Positions 6,701-53,035 of a DNA stretch of 64,000 nucleotides are shown here, piece after piece. The notes beneath the pieces were generated by a model. The model was not told where the DNA came from. It was given only the letters and a program-made list of their open reading frames with translations, and made no database searches. Every line of letters begins with the position of its first letter. Within the stretch, counting starts at the first letter, position 1. The stretch is from Hybos culiciformis (taxonomy: Eukaryota > Arthropoda > Insecta > Diptera > Hybotidae): contig OZ023273.1 in assembly GCA_964007475.1 (NCBI GenBank), forward strand, positions 82,066,598 through 82,130,597. Direction: 5' to 3'. The position numbers and the translations under genes are program-made.

Positions 6701-8408
6701 TTCTCAACTTTAAGAACTCATAGCTCGCGAACTAATGGATCGATTTTAATTTTTTAAATGGCAAAAGAAGCGTAATTTTATGAATTTTAATCTCCACATA
6801 AACTTGTATATTAAAATGATTTGGTTTTTGAGCTGATTTGAAAGAAGAGTTGAAAGAAGATTATTTCATACTAAATTTATCTCTAAAATCTTCTTTCTCA
6901 ACTTTAAGAACTCATAGTTAGCGAACTACTGGATCGATTTTACTTTTTTAAATGCCAAAAGAAGCGTTATTTTATGAATTTTAATCTCCACATAAATTTC
7001 TATTTTAAAATGATTTGGTTTTTGAGCTGATTTGAAAGATGAGTTGAAAGAAGATTATTTCATACTAAATTTATCTCTAAAATCTTCTTTCTCAACTTTA
7101 AGAACTCATAGCTCGCGAACTACTGGATCGATTTTAATTTTTTAAATGGCAAAAGAAGCGTAATTTTATGAATTTTAATCTCCAAATAAATTTGTATTTT
7201 AAAATGATTTGGATTTTGAGCTAGAGCCTCAAACCCGTTGAAAGAAGATTATTTCATACTAAATTTATCTCTAAAATCTTCTTTCTCAACTTTAAGAACT
7301 CATAGTTCGCGAACTACTGGATCGATTTTAATTTTTTAAATGCCAAAAGAAGCGTAATTTTATGAATTTTAATCTTCACATAAATCGGTATATTAAAAAG
7401 ATTGGGTTTTTGAGCTAGAGCCTCAAACCCGTTGAAAGAAAATTATTTCATACTAAATTTATCTCTAAAATCTTCTTTCTCAACTTTAAGAACTCATAGC
7501 TCGCGAACTACTGGATCGATTTTAATTTTTTAAATGGCAAAAGAAGCGTAATTTTATGAATTTTAATCTCCACATAAATTTGTATATTAAAATGATTTGG
7601 TTTTTGAGCTGATTTGATAGAAGAGTTGAAAGAAGATTATTTCATACTAAATTTATCTCTAAAATCTTCTTTCTCAACTTTAAGAACTCATAGTTCGCGA
7701 ACTACTGGATCGATTTTCATTTTTTAAATACCAAAAGAAGCGTAATTTTATGAATTTTAATCTCCACATAAATTTGTATTTTAAAATGATTTGGTTTTTG
7801 TGCTGATTTGAAAGAAGAGTTGAAAGAAGATTATTTCATACTAAATTTATCTCTAAAATCTTCTTTCTCAACTTTAAGAACTCATAGTTCGCGAACTACT
7901 GGATCGATTTTAATTTTTTAAATGCCAAAAGAAGCGTAATTTTATGAACTTTAATCTCCACATAAATTTGTATTTTCAAATGATTTGGATTTTGAGCTGA
8001 TTTGAAAGAAGAGTTGAAAGAAGATTATTTCATACTAAATTTATCTCTAAAATCTTCTTTCTCAACTTTAAGAACTCATAGCTCGCGAACTACTGGATCG
8101 ATTTAAATTTTTTAAATGGCAAAAGAAGCGTAATTTTATGAGTTTTAATCTCCATATAAATTTGTATTTTAAATGATTGGGTTTTTGAGCTAGAGCCTGA
8201 AACCCGTTGAAAGAAGATTATTTCATACTAAATTTATCTCTAAAATCTTCTTTCTCAACTTTAAGAACTCATAGTTCGCGAACTACTGGATCGATTTTAA
8301 TTTTTTAAATGCCAAAAGAAGCGTAATTTTATGAAATCTCCACATAAATTTGTATATTAAAATGATTGGGTTTTTGAGCTAGAGCTAGAGAGAAGATTAT
8401 TTCATAAT
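755..8408 (+). repeat. satellite array, about 40 monomers of ~194 bp
   Basis: The phrase (C)GCGAACTACTGGATCG recurs at 755, 949, 1143, 1337, 1530 and on, at steps of 194, 194, 194, 193 and so forth. Two monomer forms alternate: type A with GCTGATTTGAAAGAAGAG and type B with GCTAGAGCCTCAAACCC before the common GTTGAAAGAAGATT. Spacer variants AATGCC and AATGGC also alternate. Many monomers hold the 14-bp palindrome TAGTTCGCGAACTA, and each holds an inverted pair (GTTGAAAGAAGATT against AATCTTCTTTC) able to fold into a hairpin. Rare deletions recur at fixed offsets, showing block duplication. No open frame of note is present. The wording resembles the tandem repeats inside insect Helitrons, but no Helitron end is seen here. 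Confidence 0.97.
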
Positions 8409-9988: not shown

Positions 9989-10461
9989 TTATATAAAAAT
10001 GTAACTATTATAAAAATTATGAAAATATTGTTCTGAATTATTAACAATTTGCCTGCAAAATGGGCACAAAATTGGGGATTTCTTCTCCATGGACCTTTTA
10101 CAAATTTCAGTCAAACAATCTGTGCATAATTTAAAATCATTACATGGTTTCAACAAAACAGTTCTTGGATGTTCGAAACAAATCCCGCATAAAATTGTTT
10201 GTGTCGGTAAAAGAGGTTGTGAAGGTTCACATTCTTCAACATTATCATTATCCATTTCTCCTTCATTATTATTTTCTGTAATTCTTCCTTCAAATTATTG
10301 TTCTTGTATTCATACAAAGATGTTATTATTTGATTTAGAAATTCGCTTATTGTTAGTTTTTTACTTTTTAATGCACTAACTTCAAACCCCTTTAAACAAG
10401 AAATAAAATCAATAGTATTTTTCAAATCTTCTTCCAAAAGAACATCCATAAATTTAAAAAA
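9989..10461 (-). pseudogene. RING-finger protein fragment, frameshifted
   Basis: On the minus strand an open frame from about 10461 (FFKFMDVLLEEDLKN) passes by one frameshift near 10285 into a second frame ending at 9989. The distal frame carries a RING-type pattern: CGIC, then PCNDFKLCTDC, then LCPFC. In a classic C3HC4 RING the second pair reads C-x-H; here that histidine position is not a histidine, so one zinc ligand appears lost. RING domains act in ubiquitin ligases, but the substrate cannot be inferred. The first part of the frame is duplicated at 10755-11145 with the flanking repeat. It may be a host gene piece captured by repeat X or a decayed TE accessory gene. Confidence 0.55.
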
Positions 10462-11145
10462 ACACGAAGCAGTCATAGGAACTGCCGAAAGAAGTTTATA
10501 CTTCAAAGCTTTAAACTATGACTATGACTATGGCTAATGGACTGCTTTTCGACTTTATTTACATTTTGTACTGAGCAGCCCATTATTTGTAGCCACTGTT
10601 ATTTCATAGTTTAAAGCTTTTAAGTATTAACTTCTTTCGGCAGTTCCTATGACTGCTTTGTGTGTTTTTTTTTTTTGCATATTTTAAGCAGGGAAGACCG
10701 TAACCATAGCTCCCTATCCAAAATTTTTCGTCAGGTAATTCCACCCTCACTTCCACTTTTTAATGCACTAACTTCAAACCCCTTTAAACAAGAAATAAAA
10801 TCAATAGTATTTTTCAAATCTTCTTCCAAAAGAACATCCATAAATTTAAAAAAACACGAAGCAGTCATAGGAACTGCCGAAAGAAGTTTATACTTCAAAG
10901 CTTTAAATTATGACTATGACTATGGCTAATGGACTGCTTTTCGGCTTTATTTACAATTTGTACTGAGCAGCCCATTATTTGTAGCCACTGTTATTTCATA
11001 GTTTAAAGCTTTTAAGTATTAACTTCTTTCGGCAGTTCCTATGCTTGCTTTGTGTGTTTTTTTTTTGCATATTTTAAGCAGGGAAGATCGTAACCATAGT
11101 TCCCTATCCAAAATTTTTCGTCAGGTAATTCCACCCTCACTTCCA
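10363..11145 (+). repeat. tandem duplication of a 392-bp segment
   Basis: The stretch starting ACTTTTTAATGCACTAAC at 10363 recurs at 10755 and is followed to about 11145 with only scattered substitutions and a poly-T length change. Each unit holds the first exon-like part of the RING fragment, an inverted-repeat module and the start of the minisatellite. High similarity indicates a recent event. Confidence 0.95.
10459..10676. repeat. X-family inverted-repeat module (copy 1; copy 2 at about 10851-11066)
   Basis: AACACGAAGCAGTCATAG at 10461 is mirrored by CTATGACTGCTTTGTG near 10650; the arms extend inwards over GAAGTTTATACTTC and GCTTTAAACTATGA, giving a fold-back of about 215 bp. The same end sequence occurs at about 46866-46890 and 49795-49815 next to the 105-120-bp repeats, so this is the terminal module of the X family. 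Confidence 0.75.
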
Positions 11146-11512
11146 CCCTAACTTCCACTCTCACTTCCACCCTCACTCCCGCCCTCACTTCCGCCCTCAC
11201 TTCCGCACTCACTTCCGACCTCTCCTCCGCCCTCATTTCCGCTCTCACTTCCACCCTCACTTCCGTCCTCACTTCCGTCCTCACTTCCGCCTTCACTTCC
11301 GCCTTCACTTCCGCCTTCACTTCCGCCCTCACTTCCGCCCTCACTTCCGCTCTCACTTCCGCCCTCACTTCCGCCCTCACTTCCGCCCCCACTTCCGCCC
11401 CCACTTCCGCCCACACTTCCGCCCTCACTTCCGCCCCACTTCCGTCCTCACTTCCGCCCTCACTTCCGCCCTCACTTCCGCCCTCACTTCCGCCCTCACT
11501 TCCGCCCCCACT
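11129..11512 (+). repeat. 12-bp minisatellite
   Basis: About thirty copies of CTTCCGCCCTCA with point variants. All frames stay open across it, giving artificial Gly-Ser-Glu or Ala-Glu-Val-Arg repeats on the minus strand; these are not evidence of a gene. Confidence 0.97.
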
Positions 11513-11519
11513 TTTTTTT

Positions 11520-12050
11520 TTTGCATATTTGTGTCGGAACGACTCCCTGCCCAAAAATTTTTCGGCAGGTAATCTTTATTTTACCGGAGCCACCTATGTA
11601 TTTTGAAAAAAAAAAATGTTTGTATATTTTAAGCCGGCACGACCTAACCGTAACTTCCTGCCCAAAAATTTTTCGGCAGGTAATCTTTATTTGACCGGAG
11701 CTACCTATTTTGAAAAAAAAAAATTTTTTTGTATATTTTGAGCCGGCACGACCTAACCGTAGCTCTCTGCCCAAAAATTTTTCGGCAGGTAATCTTTATT
11801 TCACCGGACCTACCTATTTTGGAAAATAAATTTTAGTTTTTAAATAATTTGAATTTAAATTTGTCGCGCCAAATTATTTTGTTTTTATAAATAACAAATG
11901 ATTATTGACCACTTATTTTTTGAGTATTCAAACGGTACATCATGTCGCTTTTCTTTCGAACTCGAAATTCGAATGAGTACAATAATTTTTACCCCCTACA
12001 GAATTACTCAATTATATCATACAACGCGCCTAAAGAAGTATAAACTTCAA
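11520..12050 (+). repeat. X family copy A: three ~105-bp repeats plus tail
   Basis: Three tandem units, each with GGCACGACCTAACCGTA (the first degraded), TGCCCAAAAATTTTTCGG, CAGGTAATCTTTATTT and ACCGGAGCTACCTATTTTG, span 11520-11830. An AT-rich tail follows, with GTCGCGCCAAATTATTTTG, ACCCCCTACAGAATTAC and the end CAACGCGCCTAAAGAAG. The same order occurs, inverted, at 45955-46915 and in direct sense at 49790-51106. No coding frame. Confidence 0.9.
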
Positions 12051-12919: not shown

Positions 12920-13119
12920 NNNNNNNNNNNNNNNNNNNNNNNNNNNNNNNNNNNNNNNNNNNNNNNNNNNNNNNNNNNNNNNNNNNNNNNNNNNNNNNNN
13001 NNNNNNNNNNNNNNNNNNNNNNNNNNNNNNNNNNNNNNNNNNNNNNNNNNNNNNNNNNNNNNNNNNNNNNNNNNNNNNNNNNNNNNNNNNNNNNNNNNNN
13101 NNNNNNNNNNNNNNNNNNN
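12920..13119. other. assembly gap of 200 N
   Basis: Exactly 200 undetermined bases. The gag start on its left and the hAT transposase on its right are unrelated, so the true missing sequence is probably longer and should hold the 5' half of the hAT. Confidence 0.99.
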
Positions 13120-13121: not shown

Positions 13122-13730
13122 TTTATGTTAAATGAATTGGTTTCTCAGGATAATACATTAAGTCGACAGCTTTTCACTGAACTCGTACATAGAATTAAAG
13201 AAAGAAGAACCATCTACTCCGATATTTTTTATTTTTTAAACGATCATCAGAAACAAAGCTGTGATAATTTCGATATTTTCAATGTGATGAGTAAAACAAA
13301 AATAATAAAAGCTATTGAAGAGTTAATAAAAAAATTTAATAATTTTGGAATTAGCAATGATAAAGAAAATAAAGAAATTCTTAATATTGAAGATCCTCAA
13401 CCGGATATATCATTAATGAGCTTAAAAGAACGGCTTCAATATCAAATAAAAATTAAAACTTCTCAAATATCGCTTAAAAATAAAAAAAAGGATTGTCGTG
13501 CTTCTTCGATAAAAAAAGAAATTTATTATTTTGAAAACGAGAATGTAAAAGGGAAGTATTTAACACAGGCTTACAAATATTTGAGTTCAATTCGCCCCAC
13601 TTCCGTAGAGTCAGAAAGAGCCTTTTCAAATGCAGGTCAAATATGCACAAAAATACGTTCAAGACTTGGAGATGACTCATTAGATGCACTTTGTTTTCTA
13701 AGAGGATATTTTAAAAAAGAAAATATGTGA
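13122..13730 (+). pseudogene. hAT-1 transposase, C-terminal part
   Basis: Open from the gap to a TGA at 13728. The last ~50 residues carry the hAT dimerisation signature: RPTSVESERAFSNAG, then KIRSRLGDDSLDALCFLRGY. In hAT transposases this domain holds the third acidic catalytic residue and mediates oligomerisation; the glutamates in SVESERAF are in the expected place. The N-terminal BED finger and RNase H core are missing because of the gap. The visible frame is intact, so the copy may be fairly young. About 330 bp downstream lies the hAT right terminus. Confidence 0.85.
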
Positions 13731-34297: not shown

Positions 34298-34580
34298 TTA
34301 GAGAATAATACAATTATCATTTTTGATTTTTGAAGAATCATTATTATCATCATTGTTATTGTTATTATCATTATCATTATTATTATAATTATCATTATTA
34401 TTAATTTTACTATTATAAATTTTCTGTGACTCAAAACTAGATAAACTAGAAGAATTTTCATTAAATTCAATACATTCATCGAACAAATCTGGAGAATTGT
34501 GTTGAACACTATTTTGGGCATCTTTAGAATCAAAACTAGAATCAATATTAGTTTGAACTTTTGGAATAGATATGCCGTAA
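34298..34580 (-). other. low-complexity open frame, Asn/Asp-rich
   Basis: A minus-strand frame runs from about 34580 to 34298. It starts with ordinary composition (SSFDSKDAQNSVQHNSPDLF, then ECIEFNENSSS) and ends in an Asn/Asp tract coded by a degenerate microsatellite. It could be the last exon of an unknown protein: a TTTTCAG lies just upstream on the minus strand, but the phase after it meets a stop. I do not recognise it. Confidence 0.25.
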
Positions 34581-35084
34581 TAATACTTATTCTAATTTTG
34601 AACCGTTTTTCTGAAAATATATATTATATAACACATAGCATTACACACATAATGAATAGTATTACATTTAAGTAAAATGTATATTATCTAAATTATATAA
34701 ATTACATAAAAATAATAATGTCTTGAAAACTTTTTTTTTTTTGAAGTGAAACTTCTTTAGAGGCATTGTGATTGCGAGTGAAAAAATTGTAAGTGTCAAA
34801 AATACCTCGTTTATTGTCAAAAATGCCTCGATTATTATGTACGAGAAGTTATACACTTTTTTCAGCGAATCTTATACACTTTATCGCATGCGAGAAAATT
34901 CAAAAATGAAATTATTATTTTTTATCGCATTCGACAAGATTTAATAATAATTAATTATTTTAATGATAAACGTGTTTTAAGGCTTTAAATCAATAAAATT
35001 AATTAAAATAATTAATTTTTGATTATTCTGCATCAAAAAAAAAAAAAATTCTTTAGTGGAAAAAGTAGTAATTTTGCAAAATGT

Positions 35085-35226
35085 TATTTGTCCGCATTTT
35101 GCCAAATGACATTTGTCCGCGGCGGACAAAAGTTATTTCGAATCGCGGACAAATGTAATTTTGATGTCCGCGATACAAAACCAAATCGCGGACAAATGTC
35201 CCGCGGACAAATGTCCAACCCCCATA
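35085..35226. repeat. CGCGGACAAATGT module inside the long-TIR element
   Basis: Short inverted and direct copies of GCGGACAAATGT and ACATTTGTCCGC, ending AATGTCCAACCCCC. The same end and order occur in the element at 63301-63490, so it is a shortened copy of that family. Confidence 0.7.
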
Positions 35227-35360
35227 TATTACACAATGATTTGAACTTAACTTAGTAAAATAAAAATAAATTTTATTTCTTTAGATGTTAAAATTAAATC
35301 AAGAAGAAAAAGATTTCAAAGATAAGTATTAATTTTTATTTTTCTTTGACCCAACAAAAT

Positions 35361-35650
35361 CATTCTGAAGAAGTGTCGGACTTTAGGTGGACGCCGGTAT
35401 GGGGGAACTTTGGTGGATACCCTGCCCCAACTTCACACCAAGCGGCGTCGATGGTTCTCTTCTGGAAGTATCCATCCACCAAAGGTTTATGTAAAAATAA
35501 AAAAATTTTAAATGAGTCACTCTGAAGAAGTGTCGGACTTTAGGTGGACGCCGGTATGGGAGAACTTTGGTGGATACCCTACCCCAACTTCACACCAAGC
35601 GGCATGGATGGTTCTCTCCTGGAAGTGCCCATCCACCAAAGATTTATGTG
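35361..35650 (+). repeat. two direct copies of a 133-bp GC-richer segment
   Basis: Copies at 35361-35493 and 35518-35650 (step 157), about 90% alike. Each is open in one plus frame (SEEVSDFRWTPVW start) and in one minus frame, and is richer in G+C than its host element, which suggests captured sequence. Substitutions do not favour either frame, so coding is not supported. Confidence 0.8.
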
Positions 35651-36909
35651 CACAGTACAATATTTTATTACGAAGAAACTACTTTTTCCACTAAAGAACT
35701 ATTTTTTTTTTTGATGCAGAATAATCAAAAATTAATTATTTTAATTAATTTTATTGATTTAAAGCCTTAAAATACGTTTATCATTGAAATAATTAATTAT
35801 TATTAAATCTTGTCGCATGCGATAAAAAATAATAATTTCATTTTTGAATTTTCTCGCATGCGATAAAGTGTACAAGGTTCGCTGAAAAAAGTGTATAACT
35901 TCTCGTACATTCGATTATTGTCAAAAAAAAAGGCAAAAAAAAAGAAAAAAGAAAAAATTTATGTGTCAGCTGATGATAAAACCGACAGCCGCTAGCAACT
36001 TAATGAAGCTTATCAGCGCAATAACCTACTCTATATTGGCTCAGAATTAAAGTCGAAAATACATTTTTTTTTTTCGATTGAAAGGAAAATAAAATTTATT
36101 TTAAATTATTGAATATCAAATATTTCATTTATTAATTATTAGTGCTAATTTTCAAAAAGTTTTTGGAATGCAAATATGTATTCTGAATAAAAATGTTCCA
36201 ATGCACCTATTTTGCAGATAATTTATTTTTTATATTAATTTTTCTTAATGTAATTTTTAGTTTGTTAGTGTAATTTATTTTGACATTAAATTAATTACTT
36301 TTCGGAAGAAATACTAATGTCAAATTTTGCAGGCATATTTGAAAATGCTTTTTTAACTAAAACAGATTTTTTTTGTAGTAATTTGTAATTGAGTTATTAG
36401 TATAAATTATTTTTGACATTAAATTCCATTAATGCAATGCATGTAAAATATTTTTATTCTAATTCCTTTTCAGAAGAAGTACTAATAAACATGAAATTTT
36501 TGAGGCATATTTGAAAAAGTTATTTTAGGTTAAACTATTCGGGCAACAAAAAGAAAACATGATTTAAGCCACGCTGCTGTTTTTTCATACATTATTGTCG
36601 CTAATAATGTAGTTGTAACCGGAATTGTGTTTACAGCTTATAATATAGTGAAATCATCTGGCAATCAGTGTTGCCATGCAGCCGTAATTCTAGCCATTTT
36701 GAAACAATTTAAAAGCCATTATGCCATTAAACTTTTTGAGCTTAAAAAGTAGTTTTTATCTCTAAGTAGTCGCTGGTTTTTATTTTATTTTTTTTAATTT
36801 TTCTAAGCCGCCGAATCTCCCCAAAACAAGTTATTTTAAGTCGACCGGTCGCAGCAGTCGAAGAACAAAAATCAACTAGTCGCCGTCGAAAAAATCGATT
36901 GACGTCATG

Positions 36910-37929
36910 CAGAGTAAACATATTTCTATAGTAGAGTAACAAGGAATAACGAAAATTTCTATGCAAAAAAAAAAAAAAATTCACCTCCCTCTTACAAGGT
37001 GTCTTTCTGATTCCTTTTACTTAAGTTTTTTTCGCAGGTTTTTTTAAAATCCAAAATTAAGTACTTTTTTAAGAACAAAGTGAGTTCATTTCGTTTTATT
37101 TTCGACTTAAAACTATTTTCTTATTTTTAAATTTTTTGAAAACCGTAAAATTACTTATATTTTAAAATTTTTTTAATTTTTTGTAAAGACAAAAAATTAT
37201 CATAGTCAGCTGGTTCTTTTATAAAATAAATGCATTGTTTACATTTATTTGACTTTAAGCGCGTCATAGTTTCCCTTAAATACTCAATACTAATAAATAA
37301 TTTCGATTTTTTTTATAGCTTGACGCTAGTGATTTAAATGTGAGAAATTAAAATAATAATTAATATTAACTTTAACCAATTTTTTGTGAAAAAAACATGA
37401 AAAAAAATTAAAAAGTGAAAAATGGGAAAAAATAAATGCTATTTTCGTAAATTTTAAACAGTTTGAAAAATGTAAATTAACAGTTCCTCCTCAAAACTTT
37501 CTTAATTATATTAAAATATTGCAGGATAAGTTTTCTGAAAATTTCGATTTACATGTAACAGAAAATAATTTAGTAAGTAAATTAGCTTCCCTTCTTACAA
37601 ACGTTGAATGTAATTTCAAATGTTGTGAAAATTTCAATACAATTTATTTGATTAATTTTTTCATACGTGTGCGCATATATTTCATTTAAAATTTTTTTAT
37701 AAAAATGTAAAAATTAGAAAAAATAGAAATAAAATGTTCTCTGTGATGAGTTTATAAAATTAAAAGTCTTGTTTTATTTCGTAACTTTTAAAAAAGCAAC
37801 CATCCCATCCCTGATCATTTTTATTCAACACAATGATAGATTTTGAGTAAAAAAAAACATCGATTTTTTGGCGGGACGAAATATATTTTCTATGGCAGAT
37901 ACTTTACTTTATAAAATAGGTGTACAATG
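36910..37929. mobile_element. nonautonomous hAT-like element, 1020 bp
   Basis: CGTCATG on both sides (36903-36909, 37930-37936). The left end CAGAGTAAACATATTT and right end (reverse complement CATTGTACACCTATTT) agree at most positions. The paralogous site near 48150-48170 in hAT-A is uninterrupted and reads TATGACGCC, which fixes the boundaries. No open frame of interest. Confidence 0.75.
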
Positions 37930-38040
37930 CGTCATGTCTTATATGCACTTGGCCATTTTAAATATTTATTTAGCCTCCCCAGAAAATACTACTTGCCACG
38001 AAGTTTGACTTCTTCCGTGTGTGTCACGAGACTCACATTT

Positions 38041-41039
38041 TTTTTTTTTTATTTATTCATTGGTAATATAATATACAATCAATTTTAACATTTCATTTAA
38101 TCTAGAGCCCAACGCAAGAAATGCTTTATAGGGCTAATACTGGCAGCATTATTACAGTACTCAACAAAAAAAAAAAAAACAATAATTATTAAAAATTTTA
38201 GCAATAATAAATTGACATATTTTTCATTTCAATTTAATACAAAATAATTAATTTTCAATTATAATTACATTATCTAATCAGTCTAATTATACATTATTTT
38301 ACATAAAAGCAACAATTTTTTTTATTTATTTACTAATCTATAACAATTACAGTGTGACCACAATCAACTGTCGGGTTAAAAAATGGCTACAAAAACTTTA
38401 ATTTTACGTCAATTATCAGGAAATTTTATTTATAAGATCCTTATAATATATCATCAAACATAAACGTAGTAGAATGTCATTTAAGGAAGAAACCACTCAA
38501 TAATTAAAATTAAAACAAATGAATTAATCGAGCATCAATGATCGATTTTTTAACATGTATCTTAAAAGCATACAAAGAAGGTAAAGCCTTAACATTATTT
38601 GGCAAAGAATTATACACTATAATTCCTATATGAGACATTTTCTGAGCGGTCAATTCTAGTCTTGCGCGGGTAATTCTCAAAAGAGAAACTTAACGAGTTT
38701 GTCGTTGAGGGTAATCAAAGATTAGTGTTTGATACCCAATCATATTTCTATTTTTATAAATAAAAGTAGCAGTTTGTAGTATGAAAATACCCTTAATAGG
38801 TAAAATATTTATTAATTTGAAAAGGGATAAAGTTGAGAAACGAATATCTTTATTGAAGATAATTTTCAAGCTTTTATTTTGAATTATTTGAAGTGATAAT
38901 AGCGCTGAGGTACTTCCATTGCCCCATACTACAGTAGACTAAGAAAGATGTGAATGAATCATTGAAAAATATAATAGTTTTTTTTGTTTAAATATGAAAT
39001 TTATTACGAAATCTATATAGGATACCAAGAGCAGGAAGTAGTTTATTCTTAATTACGGCGATATGCTCGTCCCATTTTAAATATTTATTTAAAGTTATCC
39101 CAAGATACTTCACCTTTTCTGACTCATTTATTAATATGTTGTTTATACTGATAGTTATAGGTTCTATTATTCTATTAATTGTTCTGAATACGATCAGTTC
39201 AGTTTTATTTGCATTAATTGTTAATTAGTTTATAATTAAGTACATTTCAATAGATCTAATATCCTGTTCAATTTTTCTTTTCACTTCTTCAGTACTTATA
39301 CCGGGGTAAAAAATCGAAGTATCATCCGCAAATTGGAATAAAACTCCATTAAGAGGTAATTTAGCCATAACGTTAATATAAATAAGGGAAAGAAGAGGAC
39401 CTAATACACGTCCCTGTGGAACACCTATATTAATGGGCATAAATGAGCTCTTAGCTTCATTTATTTGAACATATTGGTATCTATCTGACAGAAAACTTAT
39501 AAAGAATTGAAGTGAATTACCACGAACCCCCGCAATATGTAGTTTTTTCAGAAGAATATCATGATCAACGCTATCGAAAGCTTTTTTCAAGTTCAGGAAG
39601 AGACCTCCTACTATTTTGTCTTGGTCAATGAATCCACATATAGATTCTACTAGTTGTACCATGGCTGTTTGTGTTCCACTTCCAGTTCTGAATCCGTATT
39701 GTTGTGAATAAAAAAAGTTATTATTATTTAGAAATTTAGAAAGTTGATTAAATACTATCTTTTGGATAATTTTATCTAATATTGGTAAAATAGAGATAGG
39801 TCTGTAATTATTCATATTTTCTTTATTGCCTCCTTTAAAGATAGGCAGAATTTTTTGTATTTTTAATTTATTGGGATATCTTCCAGTTCTAATAATTAGA
39901 TTAAAAAGTTTAGTTAATAATTGTGCAAAAAGTTCTTTCGATTCATAAATAATCTTAGGCGAAACATCATCAAAACCACAGCCTTTATTTAATGGCATTT
40001 TAGAAATCAAAGACAGCACTTCATCATAAGGAGTATCTTGGAAGTTAAACGTTGTAATGGATGGACACAAAGTTCTAAAATGATTTAAATCGTTACTAGG
40101 ATTACTAGGATTACTAGAATTAAACTCAGCTGACATTTGAGAACCTACTGTGGCAAAAAATTCATTAAGAGCGTTTGAAATATTATTTTCGTTGTCAACC
40201 AGAGTTCCGTTTTTGTCTATTATTTGGTTAATTTGAGAAGTTTTGTCTTTGCCCGTAATAGAATTAATAAAATTCCATACTTTTTTAGGATCTCCAGCAC
40301 AATTATTTATTTTTGATTGGAAGTGTGAATTTTTTTGCTCTTTTAGTTGTTCCTTCACTAACCTCTTCAGTCTTATGTAGCTATCATGTATATCCAAATT
40401 GTCTCTATATTTCAAGCTAAGTTTTCTCATTTTATTTTTTTGTTTAATAAGCTTAATTAAATCCTCGCTTATCCAAGGGAACTGTAAATTACTGTTTTTG
40501 ATTTTAGTAATACGCGTTTTTCTGTGGTTTAATACTAGATTAGTTAGCGAGTAATAAATAAAATCATAGAACACATCAGAGTTGGTAAAAGTATCCATAA
40601 GAGTTGAAGAGAAAACGCTATGAATTTCCATTTTTAGACCTATATAATCAATTTTTTTGTTTTTTTTGAGTTTGAATTTACAATTTGGTAGTGTGCAACT
40701 CAACCTGCCTACCAATAAATTATGATCACTAAGAGAATTCTCACAATTACTCACCAATATCTCAGAAAAATCAAAGATATTGGTGAATATATGATCAATA
40801 CATGATTGCGACTGAGGTCGAGTTACGAGATTGTTATGCAGAGTGAAATTATGAGAGTATAGTAGTTCAAGAAAAAAATTGGATGAAGTAGAATTAAGTG
40901 TATTTACATTAGAATCACCCATAAAAATTGTGTACTTATTACCCACAAAATTGAAAATTTCATTTAGTTGTTCATAGAATTTGGATTAATTGCATTTAGG
41001 GGATCTGTAGTATGCGACAATGGAAATTGCCTGCGACAT
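38041..41039 (-). mobile_element. LINE-2: 5'-truncated non-LTR retrotransposon
   Basis: Minus-strand element with its A-rich 3' tail at 38038-38050 and homology up to about 41039, where it stops within the endonuclease start, the usual sign of 5' truncation. The 3' UTR covers about 38051-38530. It sits in the inverted hAT-A copy on one side and meets the EnSpm-like relic on the other. Confidence 0.88.
38530..41039 (-). pseudogene. LINE-2 ORF2: endonuclease and reverse transcriptase
   Basis: Minus strand in order: SQAISIVAYYRSP and a stop near 40987, then KYTIFMGDSNVN, CIDHIFTN and LSDHNLLVG (end of APE endonuclease: GDxN and SDH). A linker follows, then the RT: NYRPISILPILDKI, QQYGFRTGSGTQ, LFLNLKKAFDSVDHD, GVPQGRVLGPLLS and FQFADDTSIF. 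The main frame is open from 40946 to a TAA at 39225, and continues in the same frame with NANKTELIVF and YLGITLNKYLKWDEH; later stops fall near 39000-38940 and 38695. Motif A has Asn-Leu-Lys where Asp is normal (FxDLxKAFD), so the catalytic Asp appears lost. The clade may be CR1/Jockey-like. Confidence 0.88.
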
Positions 41040-42960: not shown

Positions 42961-43985
42961 TAAATATTCTTTATTACGTCCTGTTTTTTATCAGCCAATG
43001 GTGACGCTATTTTTAAAGTAGAATTTTATTTATAATTTTTTTTATAAGATAAAAATAGAGAAATATTTTTTTTATTCCTATTAGAAAATATTTTTTTCAA
43101 ACATATATAATTTCTAATTGCAGTTTATGAGCAGGGACCTACCCACAATTTCAGAATTTTAAAACTATAATATTGAATAAAATTTCATACCTGGGGTTTA
43201 TACTGGATGGTTTCGAAGATTAAAACTAAAATTATTTTTTAATGTGTTCGTAAAATTTGTGTAAAAGAAAATAATTTTCGTTTTAATCTTGAATAAAAAT
43301 CTTGGTTAAATATTTCATTAATTTCTGTCAAAAAAAGAAAAAAAAAAAAAAATAATAATAATAAAATAAAAAGTCATGTGCAAGGGGGCGGGGGGCGGGC
43401 GGGCGGTCAGTGGGATTTGCGCCGCCTATGAAAAGGCTTTAACGAGAAATTAATTTAAAAAAAAAAAAAAGGCGGGGCGGCTGGCGGCGCCGCAAATCCC
43501 ACTGAACTACCGCGCGCGCGCCCGCCCGCCAACCCTTTTTTTATAAAATTAATTTCTCGTGTTTAAAATTTTTTGTGAGGGTCATAACTCCGAAATGGGG
43601 GCTTTCCCGCTAAAACCGTCTCGGATTTAACATTTTTGGCACCGCCTCTATTATATATCCAAAAATAGGGCACAAAAAAAAAAGTCCATACAAAAATGTA
43701 TGAAAACTTTGCGAGACCCTTTCTCCGAAACGGGCCTTTGCCCCAAGAACTGATTTCAGTTCTCCAAGTTTCAGACCATTTTAAGACTTTCAAGGAAACG
43801 GCAGTATCGCCAAGAATTTTTAGTAAATCCTTTTATTCGCTATCGAATTTTTTTATTTTAAAGTGCTTTAATTAAAATTAAGAAAAATAGAAATAAAATT
43901 TTATCCGTGTTACACTTTTAAATTTAAGAATTTTTATTTAAAAAATATTTCATCGGGTCCATCCATGATTTTGTCTATTGAACAC
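42961..43985. other. spacer with a GC-rich inverted pair
   Basis: At 43385-43427 and 43482-43530 there are GC-rich arms in opposite sense (GTCAGTGGGATTTGC against GCAAATCCCACTGA) with runs of GGGC/GCCC. A second inverted pair, ACGAGAAATTAATTT at 43442 and AAATTAATTTCTCGT at 43546-43560, interleaves with the first. Position 43563-43793 holds moderately GC-rich sequence without a credible gene. The rest is AT-rich. Confidence 0.6.
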
Positions 43986-44639
43986 TAGGACTTCCAGTCC
44001 CGGGATCACGGGATATTGAGGTTTTTTACAATCCCGAGATCCCGGGATTATGTTATAGAAATCCCGGGATTCACATACTTAACGTAGTTTTATCAAATAG
44101 TATGAGAATTCTAATCTTCTTTCAAAATATTGTTTTTGAAAGAAAAGTACATTTAAAATTTTTAACGTTAAATCAGAATTATTGTCGACAAGTAAGCCAT
44201 GACTATTTTTGTTGCTATAGCAACGAAACTGTAGAAATTTTAAATTTCAATAATTATTTTGAAAATATTAATATTTTTAGTATGTTTTCGATTTGTGAAC
44301 ATAAAGTTAAAGTAGTCGAATTAACAAAATGAAAATAGTATTTAAAATAAAATATACTTTTGTATTCTTTGTGCAATTATAATTAGGAAATGTTATATTG
44401 TTATATTGTTATATGATTAATATTTTTTGAATTAATATTTTATATTTACAGTGCTTTCTTCAGTGTTAAATTAAAATATTGTTTACTATTTCTAAATTAA
44501 TCGTATTATCGTATTTCTAAATTCCGATGCAATACCCTGTAAGTAAGTATATTGAAAAAATGATGTTATTTGAATGCGGTATTTTTAATTAATATTATTT
44601 TATATTAAAATTGTTGTCTACAAAGAATATTTCACAGGA

Positions 44640-45229
44640 AGTAATTCAGCAGTATGGAAACATTTCCTACGCGATGAAAAAGGTGAGACTCAATGTGTAA
44701 GGTGAGCGATTGCACAAAAGTTTTAAAAATTGACAGAACCTGGAGCTTGGGTTTAGTGGTGGAACGACACGAGGTCTACACAAAATCCAACTAAAGAATA
44801 AAAACGATTCTGATGTCGCAAGTACATCTGGTGAACCTCCGAAAAAAAAAGTTACAACATTAACTAATTTTTTTCCTGCATTGGAGCATAAGCAAAAATC
44901 GCTTCCTGCAACCCTGTCACGTTTAACTGCACTAGATGGGCTCTTATTTAATGTTTTATGCCATTTTTTGGATCTGCGTGCAGGCTTAACTGCCATGGGA
45001 TTTAAAAAATTGCCTACGTCACCAAGTACGATTTGTAAAATTGTTTTAGATTACGCTAATGAAATAAGAAATTCTGTTAAAGCTGAAATTGCTATCCAAC
45101 GAAAATCAGGAGAACGATTTTCTCTGTCATTCGATGAATGGACATCGTTACGAAATCGGCGATACATGAATATAAACGTACATGCTGAAGAATCAAAATT
45201 CTGGAGCTTGGGTTTAGTTCGTATTAGTG
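44640..45229 (+). pseudogene. hAT-A transposase exon 1 (BED finger, start of RNase H fold)
   Basis: Begins with SNSAVWKHFLRDEKGETQC, the first half of a BED zinc finger. The frame then shifts near 44703 (Cys ligands CVR and CTKV in different frames) and resumes as GGTTRGLHKIQLKNKN. From 44762 it is open through LTNFFPALEHKQKS, TLSRLTALDGLLFN and ERFSLSFDEWTSLRNRRYMN, where Asp of FDEW is the first catalytic residue. The exon ends ...VRISG at a GTACTG donor (45230). A 17-base phrase TGGAGCTTGGGTTTAGT appears twice (44738 and 45201), once in the expected place and once in the damaged finger. Confidence 0.8.
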
Positions 45230-45258
45230 GTACTGTATGAATATACCGAACTGATGGT

Positions 45259-45632
45259 GGATTTAGTACGTGCACTAAATCCGGATTTTGCTGGGGTTGT
45301 TTAGCACTTGGACTAAACAACCGTGAACTGCTGTCCTGGAGCTAAAAATTGAAATACAAAATATTCTAGTACTTGGACTAGAATATTCAATGTATTAACA
45401 ATTACTAAAGGTAATATTGCAGTGTTTTAGTACTTGAACTAAAAGATCCACTCTATTATATTTACCTGAATGTTATTCCAGCACTTGGACTGGAATATCT
45501 TCACCTTTTATGAAATTATTAAGGCACTTCAACCTCAACAACTTCCTCTGTTTAATGAAATTATTAAAGCACTTGAAACCTCAATAACTTCTGCTGAATT
45601 TATTATTAAGGCACTTGGAACCTTAATAATAA
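45259..45632 (+). repeat. series of eight short hairpins with a common loop
   Basis: Each has a different stem but a loop of the type (C/T)ACTTGG(A). Perfect stems: GGATTTAGT with loop ACGTGC (45259-45282); GGTTGTTTAG with loop CACTTGGA (45295-45322); AATATTCTAGT with loop ACTTGG (45360-45387); TTTTAGT with loop ACTTGA (45425-45444); TATTCCAG with loop CACTTGGA (45474-45497); TTATTATTAAGG with loop CACTTGGAA (45600-45632). Two decayed ones lie at about 45516-45539 and 45561-45587. The arms always end AG or AGG before, and CT or CCT after, the loop core. Confidence 0.85.
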
Positions 45633-45910
45633 GGGGATCACAATAAAAGAACAAACACTTTAATCTGTTTCTAAAATTATAATGACTTTATTATTCAAAT
45701 TCGTGCATTTTTATACTATTTTAGTCCCTAGTCAGCATTTGTATTCTACTATTTTTTCTTTGGAACTTACTTAACTTATACAATTATTATTTTTACCAAA
45801 ATTGCTACATATTCAAATTTCGTATAAATTCATTCTTAACATATAAAATTCACTCTTAACATAACATATAAATATTTACAGGCATATTAAATTACACATA
45901 AATAATTAGG

Positions 45911-45935
45911 TTGATAAAGTGTAATGCTTTATCAA
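45911..45935 (+). repeat. isolated 9-bp-stem hairpin
   Basis: TTGATAAAG and CTTTATCAA around the loop TGTAATG. It differs in loop from the series upstream. Confidence 0.7.
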
Positions 45936-45954
45936 CATAATTATTGTTGTTCAA

Positions 45955-46915
45955 TGTTTTTGAAGTTTGTATGATATAATTGAGTAATTCATTTTCATTC
46001 TACTCATTCGACATTCGAAATCGAATTCGAACTGACATGGTTTTTGACGTTTCAATACTCAAAAAAATTAGTGGTCCACTCAATAATCATTTGTCATTTA
46101 TAAAAACAAAATAATTTGGCGCGACAAATTTAAATTCAAATTATTTTTTAAAAATTATTCGTTAACAAATTATTTAAAACTAAAATTTTCTTTTTTTTTT
46201 TTTCAAAATAGGTAGTTCAATAATCATTTGTTATTTATAAAAACAAAATAATTTGGCGCGAAAAATTTAAATCCAAATTAATTTTAAAAATCTTTCGTTT
46301 ACAAATTATTTAAAACTAAATTTTTTTTTCAAAATAGGTAGCTCCGGTGAAATTAATATTACCTGAAAAAAATTTTTTGGGTGGGGAGCTACGGTTAGGT
46401 CGTGCCGGAGCAAAATATACGAAAATTTTTTTTTTTTCAATAGGTTGCTCCGGTGAAATTAATATTACCTGAAAAAAATTTTTGGGTGGGGAGTTACGGT
46501 TAGGTCGTGCCGGAGCAAAATATACGAAAATTTATTTTTTTTTTAAATAGGAAGCTTCCTCCGGTGAAATTAAGATTACCAGTCGAAAAATTTTTGGGCA
46601 GGAAGGTACGGTTAGGTCGTGCCGGCACAAAATACACAAAAAAAATTTTTTCCCGAAATAGGTAGCTTCGGTGAAATTAATATTACCTGAAAAAAAATTT
46701 TTGGGTAGAGAGCTTTGGTTAGGGCGTGCCGGCGCAAAATATACGAAAAACATTTTTTTTTTTCAAAATCGGTAGCTCCGGTGAAATTAATATTACCTGC
46801 AAAAAAATTTTTGGGTGGGGAGTTACGGTTAGGTCGTGCCGGAGCAAAATATACGAAAAATTTTTTCTATGACTGCTTCGTGTGTTTTTTTGTTTTTTTT
46901 CTTCCATATCATAAT
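45955..46915 (-). repeat. X family copy B (inverted), six repeats of ~110 bp
   Basis: Order on the plus strand: tail (CAATTGAG-type start, CGAATTCGAACTGACATGG, GGCGCGACAAATTTAAATTC, partly doubled at 46082 and 46205), then about five to six units with GTAGCTCCGGTGAAATTAAT, TTTTTGGGTGGGGAG and TACGGTTAGGTCGTGCCGG (46333-46866), and the end CTATGACTGCTTCGTG. It lies wholly in the hAT-A intron. Confidence 0.9.
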
Positions 46916-46930
46916 GATGTTTCTGAACAG

Positions 46931-48063
46931 GTACAATGCCTGAAGAAAAGTGTATTAAATTATTAATAGAAAAGTTAAATGAACATGGACTAAATTTGCA
47001 TAAGGATATCATCTCTATTACGAGTATTACGACAGATGGAGCCAGTGTTATGACAAAAGTTGGAAAATTATTATCATTGCAACATCAATTATGTTTGGCA
47101 CACGGAGTAAAACTTGCAGTTATTGATGTTTTGTACAAAAAATCAGAAGAACGAGCCGAATCAGAAGAAGATACTGAAGTAGAGAAACTTTCAGATAGTA
47201 ATAGTGAAACTGAAATGTGTGAAGAGCTGGAAAGTGTGAAATGTGTGAAGAGCTGGAAACTGTGTCCAGAAAGCTCTTATAGATGTAAAACTAAATAAAT
47301 CTACAGATAGTTCTCAAAATGAAATCCAAGCGATTTCTGAAATTGTTGATGCTTTAACATCTATCAAGGCTACTGTTGAAGCTTTTTGTCGCCAGGACGC
47401 GAACCTTATTACGGCCGATATCGCTATTAGCTTTACGTTGAAGAAACTGGAACACGCGGATAATATTATTAGTCAAAAACTGTTTACAGCTTTAACTATT
47501 CGATTGAAGCAACGTCGTACGGATTTAAGCGGACTTTTGTATTATCTACATAATGGCTCACTCCGACAAAGAATTCATTATAGTACCAACACCGACTAAG
47601 TGCCGTAAATTAATTGCAGATCTTCTTGAAAGATTGAATGCAACTTCCATAACAGCATGTTCTACAATAGAAGTTGATGAATTTCAAGATGTTTCTCTGC
47701 AGGAGGGAATTGTTGAAGTTATTTCTGTACAACCGTTAACTACAGCCGAAGAAATTAATAAAGCAATAAATGATGGCATGTCACGTCCACAAGTGATACC
47801 ACATCGATGCGAATCGTTAGTCTCCAAACTTCAAAAAGAGATGGCTCTATTTGAAAATGGTGACTCACATGGCGATTATTTGAGCGTGCATATAAATATT
47901 TAAAAACGATAAAACCAACCAGCATCGAGTCAGAAAGAGCGTTTTCTTCTGCAGGTTTATTTTGTAATAAATTACGAAGTTCTTTGGGCGATAAGGTTCT
48001 AGACGAGCTCTGTTTCCTCAAATGCCACTTCCAACAACAAAAAAAAACATATGTGAGTCTCGG
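46931..48063 (+). pseudogene. hAT-A transposase exon 2 (RNase H core to dimerisation domain)
   Basis: Opens MPEEKCIKLLIEKLNEHGLN and has SITTDGASVM (second catalytic Asp), HQLCLAHGVKLAV, an acidic insertion, EAFCRQDANLI, QRRTDLSGLLYYL, and the C-terminal KPTSIESERAFSSAGLFCNK with DKVLDELCFLKCHF. A 26-bp tandem duplication at 47212-47263 shifts the frame within the acidic insertion; a second shift lies near 47553 and a third near 47880. Repairing these is not attempted. All domains are present, so the gene died recently relative to others here. Confidence 0.88.
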
Positions 48064-48283
48064 GACGCACGGAAGAAGTGAAACTTCATGGCAAGTAGTA
48101 TTTTCTGGGAAGGCTAAATAAATATTTAAAATGGCCAAGTACATATAAGATATGACGCCGATCGATTTTTTCGACGGCGACTAGTTGATTTATGCCCTTC
48201 GAATGCTGCGGTCAGTCGACTTAAAATTACTTGTTTTGGGGAATTCGGCGGCTTAGAAAAAATTAAAACCCAGCGACTGCTTA

Positions 48284-48687
48284 TACCTTGTTCGCATTCT
48301 AATTTAAATTCCACTTATATTCCGGAAAACAAATTACCGTTCGCATTACAAAATTTGATGAGAAGTGGAATTTAATGATGTATACAAAAATTTAGAAATT
48401 TGTTGTTGAAAATTTTGACTTTTTATCTCACTTTTTATCAATTTTATTTTGTTTTTTTTTTTTCATTTTGACTCGAATTGGACAAAAAAAATTGTTGCCA
48501 ACTATAATAAAATTTCAAAAAGTGAGTGAAAGTAACTATAAATATAGCATTTTAACCCTGACAAACTACAATATGAAAATGGAATATACATATTCCGGAA
48601 TATATTTTTATATGAAAAATCCAGTTCATTTTCCTGAAATATTCCGGAAAACAGCATATTCCACAAATATTCTCCTAATGCACCATA
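48284..48687. mobile_element. 404-bp element with TTA flanks in hAT-A
   Basis: The inverted hAT-A copy reads straight from GCGACTACTTA into GAGATAAAA (36760-36775), while here 404 bp intervene between TTA at 48281-48283 and TTA at 48688-48690. A 3-bp TTA duplication is usual for PIF/Harbinger elements. Inverted ends are weak; the inside has several ATTCCGGAATAT-type palindromes. Confidence 0.65.
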
Positions 48688-49789
48688 TTAGAGATAAAAG
48701 CATTTAAAAATTCTAAAATACTTTTTAAGCTCAAAAAGTTTAGTGGCATAAAATTATTTCAAAATGGCTAGATTTATGGCAACACTGATTGCATTCTACT
48801 ATATTTCTACTATATTTTAAGCTGTAAACACAATTCCGGTTATTAGCGACAATAATGTATGAAAAAACAGCAGCGTGGCTTAAATCATGTTTTCTTTTTG
48901 TTGCCCGAAAAGTTTAACCTAAAATAACTTTTGCCTGAAAAATTTCATGTTTATTAGTACTTCTTCTGAAAAGGAATTGTAAAAAAATATTCCTCCTGCA
49001 TTTTATTAGTGTAATTTAATGTCAAAAATAAATTACACTAACAAACTACAAATCACATTAAGAAAAATTAATATCAAAAATAAATTATCTACAAAATAGG
49101 TGCATTGGAACATTTTTATTCAGAATACATATTTGTGTTCCAAAAACTTTTTGAAAATTAGCACTAATAATTAATAAATGAAATATTTGTTACTCAATAA
49201 TTTAAAATAAATTATATTTCCCTTTCAATCGAAAAAAAAATAGTATTTTCGACTTTTATTCTGAGCCAATATAGAGTAGGTTATTGCGCTGATAAGCTTC
49301 ACTAAGTTGCTAGCGGCTGTCGGTTTTATCATCAGCTGACACATAATTTTTTCTTTTTTTTTTTGCCTTTTTTTTTGACAGTAATCGTTTTACTTTTGAG
49401 AATAAATGTTTTATTTTTTGACAATAATGGTTCTATTTTTGACACTTACATTTTTTTCACTCTCAATCACAATGCCTCTAAAGAAGTTTCACTTCAAAAT
49501 ACTTAATTAAGAATTTTAATATGAATTACTTAATATATGAATTTAATAATTACTATAAGTTATTAATAATTTAAATAAAAAGATTAATTTTATACTGAAT
49601 TAACTGCAAGCTTTTATTATTTTCTACTTTATATTTTTTTTCAGCAGAGGAACTCAATACCGGGATCAATCCCGGGATCCCGGGATTTGTAAAATGCAAT
49701 CCCGAAATCCCGGGATCGGAATTTATGTCCGGGATTGGAAGCCCTATTGAACACCTATAATAAAATCATATAAAAACTAAGTGTAAATC

Positions 49790-51098
49790 AAAAACACGAA
49801 GCAGTCATAGAACTGCCTACAGAAGTTTATACTTAAAGATTTAAAATATGAAATAACAGTGGCTACAAATGATAGGCTGCTGAGTACAAAATGTAAATTA
49901 AAATATTTTATCCTCTACCAAAAAAACGCACAACGCGGCTAAAGAAGTATAAACTTCAAAAAAAATTTCCTATATTTTGCTCCAGCACGACCTAACCGTA
50001 GCTCCCCACCCAAAAATTTTTTTTCAGGTAATATTAATTTCACCGGAGCTACCTATTTTCAAAAAAAAAATGTTCGTATATTTTGCTCCGGCACGACCTA
50101 ACCGTACCTCCCTACCCAAAAATTTTTCGGCTAGTAATCTTAATTTCACCGGAGCTACCTATTTTGAAAAAAAAAAAATTTTCGTATATTTTGCTCCGGC
50201 ACGACCTAACCGTAGCTCCCCACCCAAAAATTTTTTATTCAGGTAATCTTAATTTCACCGGATCTACATATTTAAAAAAAAAATAAAATTTCGTATATTT
50301 TGCTCCGGCACGACCTAACCGTAGCTCCCCACCCAAAATTATTTTTTCAGGTAATATTAATTTCACCTGAGCTACATATATTGAAAAAAAAAATTTTTTT
50401 CGTATATTTTGCTCCGGCACGACCTAACCGTGGCTCCCCACCCAAAAATTTTCTGCAAGTAATATTAATTTCACCGCAGCTACCTGTTTGAAAAAAAAAA
50501 AAAAAAAATTCTATATTTTTCTCCGGCACGACCTAACCGTAGCTCCTTGCCCAAAATTTTTCGTCAGGTAATCTTAATTTCACCGTAGCTACCTATTTTG
50601 AAAAAAAAATTTTTTTTGTATATTTTGTGCCGGCACGACCTAACCGTAGCTCCCTGCCCAAACATTTTTCGGGAGGTAATCTTTATTTTAACGGAGCTAC
50701 CTATTTTGGAAAAAAAATTTAGTTTTAATTAATTTGTAAACGAAAGATTTTTAAAATTAAATTGAATTTAAATTTAAGGCGCCAAATTATTTTGTTTTTA
50801 TAAATAACAAATTATTATTGAACTTATTTTAAAAAAAAATTTTTAGTTTTAAATAATCTGTAACCGAAAGATTTTTAAAAAATAATTTGAATTTAAATTT
50901 GTCGCACCAAATTATTTTGTTTTTATAAATGACAAATGATTATTGAGTGGACCACTAATTTTTTTGAGTATTGAAACGTCAAAAACCATGTCAGTTCGAA
51001 TTCGATTTCGAATGTCGAATGAGTAGAATGAAAATGAATTTTTACCCCCTACAGAATTACTCAATTATATCATACAACGCGCCTAAAGAATTATAAAC
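49790..51098 (+). repeat. X family copy C, seven to eight repeats of ~110-115 bp
   Basis: Begins AACACGAAGCAGTCATAG, then GAAGTTTATACTT, ACAGTGGCTACAAATGA and a GAAGTATAAACTTC palindrome. Units with TTTTGCTCCGGCACGACC, GTAGCTCCCCACCC and TTAATTTCACCGGAGC run from 49975 to 50712. The tail (GGCGCCAAATTATTTTG, partly doubled; CATGTCAGTTCGAATTCG; ACCCCCTACAGAATTAC) ends CAACGCGCCTAAAGAA. Short open frames inside are by-products of the repeat. Confidence 0.92.
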
Positions 51099-51101
51099 TT
51101 A

Positions 51102-51864
51102 TGCTAGAGATAGAGTCGACGTAATTCACGCGCGTGTACGCACGTAAAAAATCAAATTGTATGAAAATGTATGAGACCGACTATACGCAACGACGTAAAA
51201 CGTAGCTTACGCGCGTAAAAGTTGAAATATTTTAACTTTCCCAGTATTTTACGCCGTACATTGTGGAAATCATTTGTTTATAATTGTGTTGTTTATTTTG
51301 TTGTAATTAGAAAAAAAAATTGTGTTGTTTATTTTGTTGTATTTAGAAAAAAAAAATTTTACAAACAAATAACTATTTAAAAAAATAAAAAAGTTCATAA
51401 ATATAATTATATTCAAAAATAAAAATTAAATAATTATTTATTGCAAATTTATTAAAATTTTTTATGTTTTATTAAGTTATAAATAAATTAAAAAGCATTA
51501 TAAAAATATTACAAACAGAATATTTTTATAATGCTTTTTAATTTATTTATAACTTAATAAAACATAAAAAATTTTAATAAATTTGCAATAAATAATTATT
51601 TAATTTTTATTTTTGAATATAATTATATTTATGAACTTTTTTATTTTATTAATTAAAAACTAAAAGATAATAATTAAAAACTAAAATTACTTAAAAAAAA
51701 TTTTAAAGAAAAAATAATAATTAAAATAAAAATTGGATGACATTTTCCTCTTTTGTTTTTCGCATGTGAACGGCGTTGAGCATAACAGGTAAAAAAAAAC
51801 AGGTTTTTTTTATTTTTTTTACGCGCGCATACGCGCGTGAATTACGTCGACTCTATCTCTAGCA
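51102..51864. mobile_element. Harbinger-like MITE, 763 bp, TSD TTA
   Basis: Both ends read TGCTAGAGATAGAGTCGACG inwards and continue with ACGTAATTCACGCGCG-type sequence; TTA flanks at 51099-51101 and 51865-51867. The 3-bp TTA duplication suggests PIF/Harbinger. It contains a large palindrome at 51383-51646 but no gene. It inserted directly at the end of X copy C. Confidence 0.9.
51383..51646. repeat. 128-bp-arm palindrome inside the MITE
   Basis: Arm 51383-51510 and arm 51519-51646 are almost exact reverse complements around the 8-base loop ACAAACAG. The arms are AT-only over long stretches and could extrude a cruciform. Confidence 0.92.
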
Positions 51865-51995: not shown

Positions 51996-53035
51996 GGGAG
52001 CGTCTACAGTTACGGCAAACGTAACTCTTTTTTTTTTTTTAAGTTACGGCAACCGTAATACTGTTCAAAATTGACTAAAGTTACGGCAAACGTAACTCTT
52101 TTTTTTTTTTTGAGAGTTACAGCAACCGTAATCCTGTTCAAAATTGACTAAAGTTACGGCAAACGTAACTCTTTTTTTATTTTTAGAGTTACGGCAACCG
52201 TAATCCTGTTGAAAATTGACTAAAGTTACGGCAAACGTAACTCTTTTTTTATTTTTAGAGTTACGGCAACCGTAATCCTGTTGAAAATAGTTTAAAGTTA
52301 CGGCAAACGTAACTCTTTTTTTTTTTTTAGAGTTACGGCAACCGTAATCCTGTAGAAAATTGTCTAAAGTTACGGCGGACGTAACTTTTTTTTTTTTAGT
52401 GATTACGGCAAAGTTTTTTTTTGAGCATTATGACTTTTTTTTTAAATAAAAAGTTGTTATGCTGAATGGGGGAAGGCCGCCGCCTCCCCCAAACCCCCCC
52501 GGGCTTCTTTTTTTTTTTTTATTTTTATTTTGCTTTGGCGCTTCGCGCTTTTAAAACTATTTTTGTATTTTTGTATAACTATGTAAGGTTTTACTATTCT
52601 TGCATTTTTTGTATGACGATGTAAGGTTTTTACTTGTCAATAACTTTCACATGTACACATAATTTATATTTTCTATTTTGTACACGTTTATAATTTTAAT
52701 ACTGTAGCCGAGAGGTAGAGTGGTAGAATGAAATGCTAAAGAACGAGGTTCGAATCCCGAAGAAAGGGTTAAAACAAAAAAAAAGGAAGAAAAGAAAGAA
52801 AAGAAAAAAAGAAAAACATGAAAAAAAAGAAAAAAAAATTAAATAAATTTTTTTTTTTTCGACAAAAAAAAATTGCCGTAACTTTAAGCATTATGTAAAA
52901 GTTACGGTTGCCGTAACTTTAAAAAAAAAAAATAAGTTACGTTAACCGTAACTGTTAAAAAAAAAATAAGTTACGTTAACCGTAACTGTTAAAAAAAAAA
53001 AATAAGTTACGGTTGCCGTAACTGTAGCCACTCCC
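51996..53035. mobile_element. palindrome-array TIR element, 1040 bp, 9-bp TSD
   Basis: Ends GGGAGCGTCTACAGTTACGG and (reverse complement) GGGAGTGGCTACAGTTACGG. Flanks TTTTTTTAA on both sides (51987-51995, 53036-53044). The uninterrupted flank sequence is present at 53183-53280, so the site is confirmed. Left part (52007-52410): about twelve short palindromes GTTACGGCAAACGTAAC / GTTACGGCAACCGTAA in a ~72-bp period. Right part (52870-53025): five more. Between them: a GC-rich hairpin (GGGGGAAGGCC region, 52467-52500) and a tRNA-like segment. Confidence 0.85.
52703..52760 (+). promoter_or_regulatory. tRNA-like pol III internal promoter (A and B boxes)
   Basis: TAGCCGAGAGGTAGAGTGG at 52705 resembles an A box with D arm, and GGTTCGAATCC at 52747-52757 is a perfect B box, about 40 bases apart. 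No acceptor stem can be formed and no anticodon arm is clear, so it is not a working tRNA gene. This is what remains in tRNA-derived SINEs, here inside a DNA-transposon-like frame. Confidence 0.6.

Follow-up and report, generated by a model that had tools for sequence, protein, structure and literature searches.

What keeps a run of neighbouring hairpins paired while the letters of their stems differ from one hairpin to the next and the loop stays nearly the same? The question is raised by a short array at 45259-45632 of the DNA stretch analysed here (64 kb, hereafter the window), in which eight related hairpins lie within 375 bp; as DNA, six of them have perfect stems, 7-12 bp long. The original prediction had described eight hairpins, six of them perfect, and exactly these were found. 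It had further held that the stems are unrelated and that the other two units are decayed, and had proposed either that a constant core was inserted and its flanks copied in inverted form, by template switching among other processes, or that selection acts on RNA hairpins with a loop-binding factor.

Chance Expectation

Perfect hairpins with a stem of at least 7 and a loop of 5-9 number six in the array. Dinucleotide shuffles of 45240-45640 averaged 0.135 such hairpins, and none of the 1000 shuffles had more than 2. Four sites in the window match the 12-base core AGNACTTGGACT with at most one mismatch, against 0.53 expected, and all four are in the array. A 400-base piece from 52001 likewise holds six perfect hairpins, in a tandem repeat, and hairpin density by itself does not set the array apart within the window. 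The densest hairpin region of the window is made of tandem repeats of TTACGG-type palindromes (52004-52411 and 52899-53025); with overlapping ones included, 29 perfect hairpins begin within 52000-52999.

Layout of the Array

The units are named h1 to h8 in order of coordinates and their loops are given as read on the minus strand. Perfect DNA stems of 9 and 7 bp are found in h1 (45259-45282), which has the most divergent loop, GCACGU, and in h4 (45425-45444, loop UCAAGU). Three further units combine a perfect DNA stem with a closing U-G pair, namely h2 (45295-45322, 10 bp, CCAAGU), h5 (45474-45497, 8 bp, CCAAGU) and h8 (45600-45632, 12 bp, with the 7-nt loop UCCAAGU). The stem of h3 (45359-45388, CCAAGU) has 12 bp including one outer G-U and is perfect as DNA over 11 bp (45360-45387). 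The remaining two, h6 (45512-45545, loop UGAAGU) and h7 (45557-45591, 7-nt loop UUCAAGU), are imperfect as DNA; these are the units that had been taken as decayed, a description that we withdraw because each forms 14 pairs on the minus strand when G-U is counted.

Read on the plus strand, the loop core is ACTTGG in h2, h3, h5 and h8 and ACTTGA in h4 and h7, so that the shared core originally proposed is present in six of the eight units, the departures being ACTTCA in h6 and ACGTGC in h1. The minus-strand consensus is near YCAAGU, or YCAAGU(R), and the closing pair on that strand is U-A or U-G in every unit. The related statement that the arms always close with AG/CT or AGG/CCT is not exact for h7. 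Spacing between units is 38-65. From h6 to h8 the period is about 42-45 and the spacers are in common, as in ordinary tandem duplicates, and the three look like the youngest duplicates of the array. All eight loops point the same way, an arrangement with a chance of 0.008 under random orientation. This tells against random insertion and against template switching that inverts the loop, though not against the intrastrand kind.

Kinship and Covariation of the Units

Comparison of the units with one another revealed that their stems are homologous, contrary to what had been supposed: mean pairwise identity over the inner eight bases is 0.56 in one arm and 0.60 in the other, values that none of 5000 random sets reached, against a background of 0.29. 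Insertion of a core with inverted copying of unrelated flanks is for this reason not favoured, since the arms can be aligned from unit to unit. The six loop bases have a mean identity of 0.80, while the outer flanks, at 0.28 and 0.27, are no more alike than random 8-mers of the neighbourhood (0.29). With h1-h5 taken alone and the two inner bases removed, the kinship of the arms is weaker but still above background, with an identity of 0.50 vs 0.29 (p about 0.009). The lower bounds on the number of changes are 4 in the six loop sites, 12 in the eight left-arm sites and 10 in the eight right-arm sites, and there is no strong difference between loop and arms in rate of change.

In the minus-strand alignment of the eight units over nine pairs, 71 of 72 cells are standard pairs, and slid pairings reach 50% at most. 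Both sides have changed in six of the nine pairs, and the covariation score was matched in none of 500 shuffles. On the plus strand 62 of the 72 cells are paired; its covariation score was also matched in 0/500 shuffles, as expected of any palindrome. Compensatory changes thus exceed both column shuffles and slid pairings in a comparison among the paralogous units of this locus. Because all the units are paralogues at a single site, they do not give independent counts, and h6 and h7 have several changes in common. The hairpins of the array are paralogues whose stems carry compensatory changes and whose loop has changed little.

Strand and Folding

Counting G-U, all eight units form on the minus strand with 89 pairs in total, and six form on the plus strand with 59 pairs. 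In 300 shuffles of each strand, hairpins so defined averaged 1.96 (at most 5) on the minus strand and 1.56 (at most 6) on the plus strand; the plus-strand count of six therefore equals the maximum of its shuffles. RNA folding of the region, a check proposed along with the original prediction, gave for 401 bases z = -9.27 on the minus strand vs -4.97 on the plus strand, with almost equal shuffle means. Five 150-base minus-strand windows from 45250 to 45699 have z of -3.1 to -7.8, and three plus-strand windows from 45400 to 45699 have z of -1.4, 0.2 and -2.1. Low values were also obtained off the array, at the hAT end described below (43900-44124, both strands, -3.5 to -4.7), at 46375-46524 (-3.5 and -4.0) and at 45850-45999 on the plus strand (-4.3). 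Folded as single-stranded DNA, the two strands are about equal (z -7.15 and -6.36).

The departures from Watson-Crick pairing bear on the choice of strand. When the first eight pairs of every unit are tallied, 59 are Watson-Crick, 4 are G-U on the minus strand, none is G-U on the plus strand and 1 is other; over ten pairs the figures are 68, 7, 2 and 3, and over thirteen pairs, where several stems have already ended, 78, 10, 5 and 11. With changes common to h6 and h7 counted once, three of the four departures within eight pairs are G-U on the minus strand, for which a neutral model gives a probability of 0.016-0.31 (0.016 if the transition share is 1/3, 0.051 at 1/2, 0.112 at 2/3 and 0.31 at 1). 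If the tenth pair of h6 and h7 is included as well, the count becomes four of five (0.003, 0.016, 0.046 and 0.19 for the same shares), a favourable choice that omits the plus-strand and other departures present in the ten-pair tally. The assignment to the minus strand rests on few independent events and is only moderate. Upstream of the array on that strand lie a TATA-like TATAAAAA (45715-45708) and an initiator-like TCATT (45685-45681), a pair that would fit a putative promoter for a minus-strand transcript.

The Host Element

The array is located within a decayed hAT transposon on the plus strand (43986-49746), recognized by its 8-bp target-site duplication, its similar inverted ends (TAGGRCTTCCARTCCCGG) and homologues with hAT domains. 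The duplication, TTGAACAC, lies directly outside the element ends at 43978-43985 and 49747-49754 and is found once more in the window, at 34502; the short inverted ends, read inward, are TAGGACTTCCAGTCCCGG and TAGGGCTTCCAATCCCGG. None of the five transposase pieces matches Pfam at E 0.001; PF05699 aligns to the last piece with E 0.0011 and 19.1 bits, below its cut-off of 21.4. A search with the read-through protein, in which scoring was limited to the 7995 candidates sharing most words, found 188 homologues, and many of the 120 listed carry the C-terminal dimerisation domain. The organism is named in seven of these 120, which are six arthropods (a springtail, two beetles, two moths and a butterfly) and one frog; taken with the mobile elements present, this makes an arthropod origin of the DNA likely.

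The transposase reading runs up to 45229 and resumes at 46931, and the pieces after this block are in different frames. The block between (45230-46930, plus strand) begins with GT, ends with AG, joins in frame and has GGTAC on both sides; the array begins 29 bases past its GT. Among the 120 listed homologues, 118 align across the join and 116 are free of gaps nearby, and the block is therefore either an intron or an insertion. It also contains a separate element of 109-bp repeats (45967-46896, plus strand), which is a neighbour of the array and not part of it. Matching pieces lie within 49790-51100 and 10458-12047, and its right end at 46896 is set by a 30-base match. The array may belong to sequence inserted into the decayed transposase gene and not to the hAT element itself.

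Some further duplications touch the element. The copy of the 109-bp-repeat element at 49790-51100 is in inverted orientation just outside the hAT 3' end. An 18-base stretch of the transposase exon (45201-45218) also occurs on the same strand 461 bases upstream (44740-44757), at a frame change, and the pair looks like a local templated insertion as far as the letters go. Segments of 48036-49499 match 34739-38053 in inverted orientation with 80-94% identity; perhaps another element is nested in the 3' part of the hAT element, with its second copy there.

Searches for Relatives and Known Families

No Rfam family reached the gathering score anywhere in the 64-kb window, and nothing was found in the array when 45000-46000 was searched with E up to 1. 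No tRNA was found in the window. A weak Rfam microRNA match (plus strand, 45898-45948, E 0.64) lies outside the array. A microRNA precursor has a single stem of at least about 22 pairs, and with a longest stem of 14 pairs and no Rfam match in the array this class was rejected. A protein-coding repeat was likewise rejected, as every reading frame is interrupted within the array; among the open stretches that reach into it, the longer ones have 96 codons on the minus strand (45051-45341, h1-h2) and 58 codons on the plus strand (45470-45646, h5-h8). A CAAGTG-like core would also suit a transcription-factor site, which is not favoured as the sole cause because the flanks covary.

A covariance model built from the eight units recovers each of them, and because of that construction their own scores prove nothing. 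Its only other matches with E <0.05 are h3 on the plus strand and a palindrome at 45904-45942, also on the plus strand and lacking the shared loop, for which E is 0.0022 vs 0.0054 for h1. To the right of the array, 45891-45955 is an imperfect 29-base inverted repeat with a perfect 10-bp centre, again lacking the shared loop.

Viral and prokaryotic collections were scanned with a paired-core pattern (CAAGTRCT, a gap of 28-58, AGTYCAAGTRCT), for which the viral contigs contained 64 matching stretches and the genome contigs 116, of which 80 were listed; the latter total is of the same order as a rough hand estimate assuming even base use. None of the 180 stretches has a pair of cores, at most 450 bases apart, that both close a stem of at least 7, as judged with 6-nt loops only, a test that misses 7-nt loops such as that of h7 in the window. 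Seven groups have one stem of at least 7, and groups of up to seven cores occur with no stems. No relatives of the array were thus found in the prokaryotic and viral collections scanned. Plasmid and phage records gave only short DNA matches (E 0.4), and the 15 peptide-pattern stretches found for the first transposase exon in viral contigs yielded none confirmed by tblastn. In the literature, no publication on such an array was found by title and abstract start, which is not proof of its absence from print.

Origin and Possible Function

The explanation that we prefer is that the minus strand of the array, read from 45632 to 45259, encodes a single structured RNA with eight paralogous hairpins, kept by selection, and we give it slightly less than even credence. 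It is favoured because pairing on the minus strand is nearly complete, stem changes are two-sided, the loops have changed little and all point the same way, and the flanks are at background identity. Such an RNA would be, or would have been, transcribed from the minus strand, which the TATA-like and initiator-like sites would allow, and its repeated YCAAGU(R) hexaloop would give a protein or other partner several copies to recognize. Selection would keep the pairing and the loop while the letters of the stems drift, and template switching between the arms may supply some of the double changes. Of the two causes originally suggested, the better fit is selection for RNA hairpins whose loop is bound by a factor, because of the stem covariation, the little-changed loop, the single orientation and the inner G-U pairs on one strand; the function of the hairpins and their partner we infer from this pattern. 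Against the minus-strand RNA it counts that the host element is dead, that the plus strand also covaries, that both strands fold similarly as single-stranded DNA, that low z values are found off the array too, that the array has no Rfam match and that the plus-strand palindrome lacking the loop fits the covariance model better than h1 does. That the array stands for an undescribed class of eukaryotic RNA, in which tandem hairpins would present a YCAAGU loop to a loop-binding protein on stems free to change if paired, seems to us rather doubtful.

Mutation alone is the main rival: an old array of small palindromes in which replication, by template switching, re-copies one arm from the other with no function involved. 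Template switching has been proposed to create hairpins and to fix their pairing, with multiple compensatory changes enriched and with the loop sequence retained when the switch is intrastrand, although the evidence for maintenance of short stems is called circumstantial in that report (PMC8794818). The perfect Watson-Crick pairing of six DNA stems agrees with it, as does the difference between h7 and h8, which amounts to two adjacent A-T to T-A swaps, and the 18-base second copy in the same element (44740-44757 and 45201-45218) suggests local copying errors. Such switching leaves the loop open to point changes and does not predict that single-sided inner changes appear as G-U on one strand, both being only moderately strong points, and the uniform loop orientation argues against the interstrand form only. 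As the whole cause we regard mutation as possible while leaning against it; the template switching put forward in the original prediction can still have helped to keep the arms matched.

The hairpins could instead act on the plus strand, in an intron of the hAT pre-mRNA, for example by controlling transposase splicing. The position 29 bases past a GT that joins in frame to the AG at 46930 would suit such a role, and h1-h5 and h8 form on the plus strand too. The poorer pairing (62/72 cells), the three plus-strand windows with z of -1.4, 0.2 and -2.1 and the different frames of the transposase pieces after the block speak against it, and the lack of a gap here in 116 of the 120 listed homologues fits an intron and an insertion equally; we consider this reading improbable. 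Units that are alike between outer flanks at background identity would be accounted for by a minute mobile hairpin, inserting a constant core and copying its flanks inverted. Such an element would hardly leave arms that are homologous between units, one direction for all units within 375 bp at a spacing of 38-65, or the common spacers of h6-h8, which are like those of ordinary tandem duplicates, and is therefore very improbable. A constant loop on a variable stem is also the known logic of rolling-circle origins and integron attC sites. By analogy, an enzyme might cut or recombine single-stranded DNA hairpins at the constant loop of the array, and the strong DNA folding of both strands would permit this; to our knowledge eight close copies are not typical of rolling-circle-type origins, and we hold this reading to be just as remote as the mobile hairpin.

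If copies of the array exist elsewhere, one array would offer eight natural replicates with which selection for pairing can be separated from arm-to-arm template switching. If the minus-strand RNA is real, the repeated loop on freely changing stems would point to a loop-reading protein not yet named, and if mutation alone is at work the locus would be a clean case of perfect hairpins maintained with no function.

Comparison with Known Systems

In viral packaging signals, as in the array, one loop motif recurs on a number of hairpins whose stems vary; those hairpins are spread across a viral genome and bind coat protein, whereas the array is linked to no virus or protein. The roX RNA and the Xist A-repeat, which carry stem-loops in one noncoding RNA, are alike to the array by description, the difference being that stems here are of 7-14 bp and that the host region is a transposon. 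Accounts are available for packaging signals with repeated degenerate stem-loops (PMC3662417, PMC3593212, PMC7793301) and for the stem-loops of roX RNA in dosage compensation (PMC6451107), as far as the accessible parts of these sources go. RNA stems attributed to template switching resemble the array in being short and perfect and in showing several compensatory changes at once; that work treats microRNA and rRNA hairpins compared between species (PMC8794818), whereas eight copies within one array and a common loop are compared here. Coding palindromes of Nematomorpha mitochondria are similar in that many perfect inverted repeats are kept in a genome, but they reach 284 bp, lie in mitochondrial coding genes and have no common loop mentioned in the accessible part of the report (PMC6649704).

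Other Features of the Window

A perfect palindrome at 51382-51647, its 129-bp arms separated by a loop of 8 bp, is either a young foldback element or an assembly artefact. A run of 200 N (12920-13119) adjoins another hAT C-terminal domain, in 13122-13727. A satellite array with a 194-bp unit occupies 754-8380 in about 40 copies with 91% matches.
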